Shown: piece by piece, positions 26,375-29,134 of the stretch
How the letters are laid out: each line of letters starts with the position of its first letter
How positions within the stretch are numbered: the stretch's first letter is position 1
Assembly (NCBI GenBank): GCA_017623675.1
Contig: JAGAOO010000021.1
Span: forward strand, 38,368 to 102,367
DNA length: 64,000 bases
From: Lachnospiraceae bacterium
GTDB lineage: Bacteria > Bacillota > Clostridia > Lachnospirales > Lachnospiraceae
Direction: 5' to 3'
The notes under the pieces: generated by a model
What the model was told of the DNA's origin: nothing
The model's input: the letters and a program-made list of their open reading frames with translations, nothing else
The model's database searches: none
Translations under genes and position numbers: made by a program

Positions 26375-27592
26375 CTAACGCTGGCACTGAAATGTTTTTG
26401 CCTCTGCTCCGTCCAGATAAATCAAGGTTTCAAAATGTTCTTTTCCCGCATAGGCTTGATAATCCTCTAAGGTTTTCTTTGCCGACATACGAATCAATTC
26501 TACCTTTTTGCCTTCTTTTCTCATCTGACAGCCCATTTCAATGGCTTTCTGCTGATATTCCCGTTGATATAGAAGAATAATTTCCTTTTCCTCAATTTCA
26601 ACTGCAATTCCCTGACGACTGATTGCATTCATCAATGCATCAATGACAAATGCAAAACCGATGGCAGGAGCATCTTTTCCAAACTGACTGAGCAACGCAT
26701 TATAACGTCCGCCTCTTACAATGGCATCACCGGTACCATAGGTATATCCCTTGAATAAGATTCCGGTATAATACTTAAAATCACTGAGCATACTCAAATC
26801 AAAGCCCACATGTTCCTCGCAATGATAGTAGGATAAGGCATGATATACTTTTTCCAAACGGTCAATGGCAATCAGGGAACGCTGATTCTGAACCAGACCT
26901 TTTGCCCGTTCCAGCATCTCTAAACCGCCAAATAACTGGTCAAAGGATACTAACACCTGCTTTAAGTGTTCTGAAATATCCAGATGCTTTACATATTCCT
27001 GTAAGCCAAAGAAATTCTTATTTTGTATGTATTCCCGAATGGCAACCTCTTCCTCTTCATGCAGTCCGGCTTCTTCAATCACACCCTTGAAGAAATCTAC
27101 CTCTCCAACCTCAATCTGAAACTCCTCCAAACCAACTGCCTGAATACAATCTACTACTGTTGCAAGAATTTCCGCATCAGCAGCAGAACTGTCATCATTC
27201 ACCAGCTCGCCGCCAATCTGGGTTACTTCACATAGTTTTCCCTGGTGGCTGATTTTGTTAATAAAAGTATTCCCTTCATAGCAAAGACGGATTGGTAATT
27301 CTTCTGTCTCATAATACTTAGCCACACAACGTGCAATACTTGGTGTGATATCCGGACGTAATACCAGGGTATTATTCTCTCTGTCAAAAAACTTGTACAT
27401 CTCATTGGAAGGTGCCGAACCCTTGTCTCGACTGAAAATATCAAAGTATTCAAAGGTTGGTGTCTGAATATCATGATAGCTATATAATTCCAACACATGA
27501 TGAAGCTCACTCATGACCTTTCGTTTTCTCTTATACTCATTGTCATAAATGTCACGTACCCCATCCGGCGTATGTAATAGTTTCTCTTTCAT
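26375..27592 (-). CDS. hisZ: ATP phosphoribosyltransferase regulatory subunit HisZ
   Basis: A 405-residue HisZ, a histidyl-tRNA-synthetase paralogue without aminoacylation activity that activates short HisG. The class II fold is seen in TPDGVRDIYDNEYKRKRKV, the motif 2 area LRPDITPSIARCVAKYY and the late GGRYNALLSQFGKDAPAIGFAF. The anticodon-binding domain of HisRS is reduced to a short C-terminal part. It is the first gene of the operon. Upstream lies the 90-bp repeated element with a TATAAT box; no T-box was found. Confidence 0.94.
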   Translation of the reverse strand: MKEKLLHTPDGVRDIYDNEYKRKRKVMSELHHVLELYSYHDIQTPTFEYFDIFSRDKGSAPSNEMYKFFDRENNTLVLRPDITPSIARCVAKYYETEELPIRLCYEGNTFINKISHQGKLCEVTQIGGELVNDDSSAADAEILATVVDCIQAVGLEEFQIEVGEVDFFKGVIEEAGLHEEEEVAIREYIQNKNFFGLQEYVKHLDISEHLKQVLVSFDQLFGGLEMLERAKGLVQNQRSLIAIDRLEKVYHALSYYHCEEHVGFDLSMLSDFKYYTGILFKGYTYGTGDAIVRGGRYNALLSQFGKDAPAIGFAFVIDALMNAISRQGIAVEIEEKEIILLYQREYQQKAIEMGCQMRKEGKKVELIRMSAKKTLEDYQAYAGKEHFETLIYLDGAEAKTFQCQR

Positions 27593-27649
27593 CTGTGTTC
27601 TCCTTTGCTTTTTGACATAGTTTGCCTAAGCATAACTACCTAACATAGT

Positions 27650-27739
27650 ATTATAACATGTCGCCTGCCGGCTCCATGTGGGGCATTCGCACAATGCCGC
27701 TTTGTGCAAGCACAAACGTCGCTGTGCTCATTATAACAT
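27650..27739. repeat. 90-bp intergenic repeated element, copy 1, with flanking direct repeats
   Basis: Seventy bases of core (27660-27729) lie between two copies of ATTATAACAT (27650-27659 and 27730-27739). The core shares its first 19 bases with the copy at 34902-34991 at 17 positions, and both contain the palindromic TTTGTGCAAGCACAA. Read on the minus strand, each flank gives TGTTATAAT, an extended -10 box facing hisZ. It fills the 267-base gap between hisZ and toxN, which otherwise holds AT-rich sequence. Confidence 0.8.
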
Positions 27740-27859
27740 ATAATTTTTCATATGCAAGCAAGAGAAATTGGGTTTTGCTTTAATATTTTATTGAAACTAT
27801 ATATTTTTGTTTGGGATATTTTACGCTATTGAATAAATATTTGATGAAAATAAAAACAC

Positions 27860-28354
27860 TCACAACGAACTAGTAAACAATTGTACAACGGATTCCAAAA
27901 GTGGTAAATTACAACATCTCTTCTTAATATCTATTTCATAACTTGCCAAATTATCGTCCGAAGTAAAAATCAGTTTTCGAAGTTCTTCATCAGTTTTCAA
28001 GATTTCTACCTTGTCAAGTAAAATAAATTTATATTGGTTTTGTAATAATCTACGATATTGTATGTCTTCAATAGAATTAAAATCTATCAGATTTATTGCA
28101 TCATCTCTAACCGGAATCATATTGTTAAAATTAATTGCACCGTAAATTCCTTTATTAATTCTTCGAAAATCCTTTGAATTTTTCATACTCTTGTGCTTTT
28201 CCTTTGGAGAAGTAAGTGGAGCATAGTATTTAATTCCATTTACTTCAATCAAGACTCCAACATAGGGTCGTCTATGATTTTTATTTTCAGCAACTTTTGT
28301 ATCATATTTTCTCAAAAAGTTTATATAGACATCTTTAACTGTGTATAATCTCAT
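27860..28354 (-). CDS. toxN: Type III toxin-antitoxin toxin, ToxN/AbiQ family endoribonuclease
   Basis: A 164-residue toxin of the ToxN/AbiQ family, sequence-specific RNases held inactive by a repeat RNA and often giving phage resistance by abortive infection. YVGVLIEVNGIKYYAPLTSP leads to the active-site block T48-S49-P50-K51, followed by KHKSMKNSKDF and AINFNNMIPV, all family hallmarks. The start follows AGGAGGAG. Directly upstream on the same strand are a terminator hairpin, two 36-base repeats and a promoter, the exact layout of known ToxIN loci. The predicted cut site and phage range are unknown. Confidence 0.93.
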   Translation of the reverse strand: MRLYTVKDVYINFLRKYDTKVAENKNHRRPYVGVLIEVNGIKYYAPLTSPKEKHKSMKNSKDFRRINKGIYGAINFNNMIPVRDDAINLIDFNSIEDIQYRRLLQNQYKFILLDKVEILKTDEELRKLIFTSDDNLASYEIDIKKRCCNLPLLESVVQLFTSSL

Positions 28355-28382
28355 ATTTCTCCTCCTTTCATTATAATAGATT

Positions 28383-28403
28383 AAAAAGGGCGATTTCTCG
28401 CCC
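28383..28403 (-). terminator. Terminator between antitoxin repeats and toxN
   Basis: On the minus strand GGGCGA and TCGCCC pair around a GAAA loop and are followed by five T residues. It lies after the repeats and before the toxin ribosome site, where partial read-through sets the RNA-to-toxin ratio in type III systems. Confidence 0.88.
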
Positions 28404-28482
28404 CTTTTTTAGGTTCTCGCTTTATGGTGGAGACTCACCGCTTTTTTAGGTTCTCGCTTTATGGTGGAGACTCACCAACTTT
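28404..28482 (-). ncRNA. toxI: Type III antitoxin RNA (ToxI-like), two 36-nt repeats
   Basis: Two identical 36-base units (28404-28439 and 28441-28476) stand in tandem at a period of 37, transcribed on the minus strand. Each unit begins GGUGAGUCUCCACC: GGUG pairs with CACC, and the loop UCUC can pair with GAGA about ten bases downstream, giving an H-type pseudoknot. An A-rich 3' part (CCUAAAAAAG) follows. This is the structure known for ToxI, whose units are cut out by ToxN and then bind it. Two full units is at the low end of known arrays. Confidence 0.88.
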
Positions 28483-28488
28483 GATATT

Positions 28489-28517
28489 ATTATATGCAAG
28501 TATTTGAAATAATGCAA
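28489..28517 (-). promoter_or_regulatory. Promoter of the toxIN-like locus
   Basis: On the minus strand TTGCAT (28512-28517) and a perfect TATAAT (28489-28494) are spaced by 17 bases. The first antitoxin repeat begins 12 bases after the -10 box. Confidence 0.75.
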
Positions 28518-28528
28518 GTATTTTTTTA

Positions 28529-29134
28529 TCATTTTATAATATAATCAAACACGTCAATTGTTTTAAACCCCATATTCTTTAAAATGGAAACACTGTTTAC
28601 AATATCTGATTCATCATTATACTCAGGAATCCGTGGCACCCGAATCTTGCATTTCCACTGCATCTGTTCCTTGACTATGTAATTGAGATTCTGTATCACC
28701 TTTTCATTTGACTGCTTCGTATAGGCTTCATAAATCAAAGGATTCATAGTTTTTATATCAATAATAAACTGATGCACCAAATGCAATAACTCTTCTAATG
28801 ATTTCTGCTCCACCCACAAAGAAGTCTCTACATTAACATTCACATGCTCCGGCAGAATTCCTATAAAATCTCTGATTGCATCTGCATGTAATAAAGATTC
28901 TCCACCACCAAAGGTGATTCCTCCCTGAGTCGCAACAAAATAACAATAATCCTGCATGACGACATTCAACAATTCTTCCTTGGTGTACTCCTTATAAGGT
29001 GCCTCCTTTAAAACCCTTTGGTTAATACAATACTTACACTGCAGCGGGCATCCATATAATCCAATCAAAGTGGTAACACCCTCTCCGTCAACAGTCATCC
29101 GATGTCGGTTGATTGTCTGAATCTTAAAGTTCAT
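28529..29134 (-). CDS. Small radical SAM protein, glycyl-radical-activase-like
   Basis: A 201-residue radical SAM enzyme. The cluster motif is C29-x3-C33-x2-C36 (GCPLQCKYC), followed by the GGE-type ITFGGGESLLHADAIRDF and a PFL-activase-like core with VNVETS and FIIDIKTM. There is no second cluster or SPASM region, so it is a compact activase-type enzyme. No glycyl radical enzyme is encoded nearby. It starts three bases after the stop of the cysteine-motif protein, so the two are co-translated and that protein is the likeliest partner or substrate. Confidence 0.85.
   Translation of the reverse strand: MNFKIQTINRHRMTVDGEGVTTLIGLYGCPLQCKYCINQRVLKEAPYKEYTKEELLNVVMQDYCYFVATQGGITFGGGESLLHADAIRDFIGILPEHVNVNVETSLWVEQKSLEELLHLVHQFIIDIKTMNPLIYEAYTKQSNEKVIQNLNYIVKEQMQWKCKIRVPRIPEYNDESDIVNSVSILKNMGFKTIDVFDYIIK

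Follow-up and report, generated by a model that had tools for sequence, protein, structure and literature searches.

The window, a stretch of 64,000 nucleotides (nt) from contig JAGAOO010000021.1 of a Lachnospiraceae bacterium, carries on its minus strand, from 28517 down to 27860, a compact locus with the layout of a type III toxin-antitoxin system of the ToxIN/AbiQ kind. In reading order it comprises a promoter-like pair of boxes, two 37-nt units, a terminator-like hairpin, the ribosome-binding-site-like AAAGGAGG and a gene of 164 codons. The boxes, found by sequence reading, are TTGCAT (28517-28512) and TATAAT (28494-28489) with a 17-nt spacer, and both the pair and its spacing are preserved in the sister genome G006. 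In the first antitoxin unit (28476-28440), stem S1 joins GGTG (28476-28473) to CACC (28466-28463), stem S2 joins TCTC (28470-28467) to GAGA (28455-28452), and an A6 linker occupies 28447-28442; the second unit (28439-28403) has the same anatomy and its own A6 linker, after which comes the terminator. A scan places this candidate rho-independent terminator, an 11-pair hairpin, at 28408-28383, between antitoxin and toxin and overlapping the last bases of unit 2. Finally, AAAGGAGG (28368-28361, by sequence reading) lies 6 nt upstream of the start codon of toxN, which runs from 28354 to 27860. An earlier note on this DNA had described a complete locus in this order, and every feature it listed, the terminator hairpin included, is present.

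The 164-residue product was also rightly assigned to the ToxN/AbiQ endoribonuclease-toxin family. It matches Pfam PF13958 (3.5e-49), the PADLOC AbiQ profile (2.7e-39) and PDB entries 2xd0, 7d8o, 4ato and 4glk (ToxN structure 2.2e-19); a search of NCBIfam returned no family. Its predicted structure, an AlphaFold2 model, matches the ToxN fold on fold comparison. The frame is complete and the catalytic residues are retained; the T-S-P-K block pointed out earlier maps to residues 48-51 (T48, S49, P50 and K51), and Y100 and Q107 are also present. Members of the family were matched in 21 of the 61 genomes searched, the window's own included, and in 6 of the 8 genomes of the genus. Near-full-length ToxN within the genus is confined to the window genome, G001 and G002, the copies of the latter two lying elsewhere and being about 30-34% identical to the window toxin, and G003, G004 and G006 carry toxin fragments only. 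The window genome also holds a second, broken copy (L084, G000:C53, 341-603), of which only the two ends were matched, as separate pieces, possibly with one repeat-like unit upstream as judged by eye.

The two-unit repeat of the earlier note is borne out by Tandem Repeats Finder (period 37, 2.2 copies, score 146, at 28397-28476) and by an exact run of 36 nt common to both units, the next longest at periods of 30-45 in the 64 kb being 18 nt. With at most three mismatches, the 28-nt core of the unit has two copies in the window genome and three in G006, at the orthologous locus only, and these are the 2 genomes with a match among the 8 of the genus.

Among 116 toxin relatives found, the best 80 were kept, and the regions extending up to 400 bases upstream of 79 of them were combined with that of the window into a set of 80; L029 was left out because its match, at the edge of a contig, begins at residue 55. 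A tandem array of 32-42 nt lies in 72 of these regions, and two of the eight without one (L006, L019, L027, L041, L045, L049, L073 and L080) have fewer than 100 bases of sequence. When the repeat consensus is read as a circle, 68 of the 72 arrays contain an A-run of at least five, against 16% of shuffled consensuses; the longest run is six in 53 arrays, five in 14, seven in one, four in one and three in three. These runs are likely cutting sites, by analogy with the cleavage at A/AAAA for ToxN-Bt and A/AAA for AbiQ given in excerpts of a review (PMC5086642).

Aligned to their own consensus, the 72 arrays contain three units in 51 cases, two in 18, four in two and five in one. A profile count over 106 upstream regions, which takes in more distant toxins and fragments, gave three units in 58, two in 21, none in 15, one in eight, four in three and five in one. 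Two units are thus a minority size, as the remark that two is few had implied, yet a recurrent one that is not unique to the window. Eight of the 18 two-unit calls were judged clean (the window, L022, L051, L058, L061, L064, L068 and L083); L004, L012, L018 and L054 show extra divergent units, L030 begins at a contig end, and L007, L009, L011, L013 and L014 were left unclassified. The same excerpts describe repeat number as prone to slight variation and AbiQ neutralization as extending over a range of repeat numbers that includes two (PMC5086642). In three Bacillota assemblies (L052, L054 and L067), two kinds of unit alternate A-B-A-B upstream of the toxin, with a higher-order period of 77-80 nt.

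Both pairings, GGUG with CACC and UCUC with GAGA, are readable in each unit. Since nested-only folding gives just the first stem, support for the second is comparative. It was sought in 24 units of the closest group (17, one per locus, and seven more of the same loci, hand-picked) and in 68 distinct units, one per locus, drawn from all 72 arrays, with shuffles that preserve column composition and not relatedness. In the 24 units, 99.5% of 192 cells pair, versus 92.7% in shuffles, two-sided changes occur in 20 cells versus a shuffled mean of 7.0, and slid registers reach at most 66.1% pairing. Compensatory changes run from U-A to C-G in S1 and, in S2, from C-G to U-A and from U-A to C-G. In the 68 units, pairing holds in 89.3% of 476 cells, and two-sided changes number 47 versus 10.3 in shuffles. 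There S1 loses its third pair in 6 units and its fourth in 29, and S2 its third in 15, partly through misalignment; a strict parser that allows no linker base from one stem to the next accepted 50 units and failed 18. These comparisons support folding of the unit as a putative H-type pseudoknot in which both stems covary. The claim of such a pseudoknot therefore holds for the readable and covarying stems and not for nested folding, which recovers stem 1 alone. The folding z is -2.54 for the full 141 nt with the terminator and about -1.1 to -1.2 for each single unit.

The locus lies between a gene at 28529-29134, which we take from its protein to be radical-SAM activase-like, and a gene at 26375-27592 that is presumably hisZ, likewise by reading of the protein. 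Of the 7 other genomes in the genus, 5 (G001, G003, G004, G006 and G007) also have these genes together. G001 has an empty site, in which 197 bases without toxIN separate the two. In G006 the interval (L139, G006:C68, about 1480-2060) holds a solitary type III antitoxin: three copies of the window unit and an identical terminator are kept, and the middle of the toxin gene, T-S-P-K included, is gone. Apart from the one extra 37-nt unit of G006, array and terminator are identical at 96 of 96 aligned positions (74/74, and 22/22 in the terminator at 28382-28403; 95/95 by BLAST). Identity to G006 is 83.7% in the radical-SAM gene, 83.1% at the remaining toxin positions, 92.5% in hisZ (protein 99%) and 98.6% over 218 bases at the hisZ start and upstream. 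With sites treated as independent, 96 positions would all stay unchanged with a probability of about 5e-8 if identity is 84% and about 6e-4 if it is 92.5%. As this is improbable at the flanking identities, the array has either been held constant or been exchanged recently. As for the two-unit count, a third unit may have been lost in assembly. The unevenness of identity across 26375-29134, which reaches 98.5% in 27593-27659 beside the values of the two flanking genes, looks as after local exchange or mixed assembly.

Because sequence family, predicted fold, gene order, repeat array and covarying pseudoknot all fit, the locus is very probably a type III toxin-antitoxin system of the ToxIN/AbiQ kind, as first proposed. 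Its toxicity, processing and role in phage defence we infer by analogy. Transcription would start from the TTGCAT/TATAAT pair, and partial read-through of the terminator would keep antitoxin in excess of toxin, transcripts being mostly antitoxin because of the terminator. ToxN would cut within the A6 linkers, in line with the cleavage of A-rich sites reported for ToxN-Bt and AbiQ; because there is no A6 tail 5′ of unit 1, the promoter and not a cut would determine the 5′ end of that unit. Each transcript would yield two antitoxin units, one fewer than in G006. The units would assemble with ToxN as a 3:3 ring, as in solved ToxIN complexes. Phage infection would then stop the antitoxin supply, freeing the ribonuclease and leading to abortive infection. 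These steps are taken from excerpts of work on ToxIN, AbiQ and CptIN (PMC5086642, PMC8860590, PMC5772629 and PMC4627078).

Several observations weigh against this interpretation. The promoter-like pair, readable in the sequence and kept in G006, is absent from the list of a consensus promoter scan; its -35 box is weak, agreeing with TTGACA at 3 of 6 positions where the scan needs 4. Rfam gives no family at gathering cut-offs in the 64-kb window, and the nested folding of single units lacks significance. Two of the five covariation measures are not above shuffles: in the 24 units, pairs with a two-sided change number 3 versus 2.6 and further pair types 7 versus 7.6, neither in excess, and in the 68 units further pair types number 9 versus 10.1. 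By residue mapping, W57 and F88 of ToxN-Pa are replaced by K53 and N78, so cleavage preference may differ from that of ToxN-Pa. Lastly, the toxin gene is mostly lost in G006, and the module is therefore dispensable there.

The loss in G006 also bears on a somewhat unlikely alternative, a weakened ToxIN in which the step from three units to two lowers the antitoxin dose, so that the toxin is still neutralized and useful phage defence is gone. This overlaps with the ToxIN/AbiQ reading, as it concerns strength and not kind. It is favoured by the three units and broken toxin gene at the same site in G006, by the fragments that are all G003, G004 and G006 retain, and by the fall in phage resistance of AbiQ after removal of one antiQ repeat, according to excerpts of two papers (PMC5086642, PMC5772629). 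However, the window toxin has a complete frame and its catalytic residues, the array is strongly conserved, and the change in array size could have run from three to two or from two to three. It is highly improbable that the toxin instead resembles the CptIN branch and forms a 2:2 complex, which two units would fit. There is a negligible likelihood that the repeats have nothing to do with the toxin and are a direct repeat of chance or mobile origin: the presence of two units only and the non-significant nested folding of each would suit this, but the same kind of array lies upstream in 72 of 80 regions, the stems show compensatory changes, and elsewhere in the eight genomes of the genus the 28-nt core is found only in the orthologous G006 array.

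A system of the ToxIN/AbiQ kind is already known; what is added here is the orthologous pair with two and three units and the toxin-free array of G006. It is conceivable, and quite improbable, that repeat number acts as an evolutionary dial in one orthologous locus (a live toxin beside two units here, and in G006 a toxin without its middle beside three identical units), and that the toxin-free array persists as a solitary antitoxin RNA able to disarm ToxN systems of related type when they enter. If real, the one-unit difference at the same site would be natural material on array length in relation to neutralization and phage defence, a matter on which AbiQ and ToxIN-Pa have given differing published answers (excerpts of PMC5772629). 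A narrow search of the literature on ToxN/ToxI repeats found neither orphan antitoxin nor repeat number variation under those phrases.

In viral contigs, a peptide pattern, which reaches close relatives only, matched 10 stretches, none confirmed as a relative. Neither the 28-nt unit core nor a 27-nt form with two free positions had an exact match there, so that collection yielded no phage mimic of this exact unit. Among phage records, two relatives were found, both below 60% identity. In the unannotated record of Clostridioides phage pCD1602_4 (L114, 1320-1440), a ToxN relative (42.8% identity) is preceded by an A-B-A array of units. A loose-threshold Rfam search of 211 bases gave four matches; the best, MicX (21 bits versus a cut-off of 75), was rejected as chance, its alignment resting on the terminator hairpin. 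The likely promoter of hisZ contains a 70-base-pair (bp) element (27660-27729, within 27650-27739) in which short inverted repeats were noted by eye. A 10-bp direct repeat, ATTATAACAT, which includes the -10-like box, flanks the element; G006 and G001 lack it, and the window genome has three more copies of it at 74-82% identity.

Among characterized systems, ToxIN of Pectobacterium atrosepticum and E. coli (PDB 2XD0, 7D8O) share with the window the fold, the T-S-P-K block, the gene order and the H-type pseudoknot; they differ in W57 and F88, replaced here, and in unit number, which excerpts of PMC5086642 and PMC8860590 put at 5.5 for Pectobacterium and, for clusters in E. coli, at about 3 to 5.6, against two. 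The ToxIN toxin of Bacillus thuringiensis pAW63 (PDB 4ATO) is 29-32% identical and has about three units where the window has two of 37 nt. AbiQ/antiQ of Lactococcus lactis (PDB 4GLK) is weakly similar in pairwise comparison (3.1e-8) and has 2.8 units. The repeat, which the earlier note did not recognize, has close relatives among known arrays. Lactococcus lactis plasmid pCV56A (L113) encodes a toxin 40.7% identical over residues 1-150, preceded by three units very close to that of the window with A-rich linkers (the third with 5 mismatches, ungapped); it differs in its unit of 36 nt as read, in having three units and in being a conjugative plasmid. In [Ruminococcus] torques ATCC 27756 (L008), where the array has three units and the first is divergent, the toxin is 58% identical and the third unit differs from that of the window at 2 of 37 positions.
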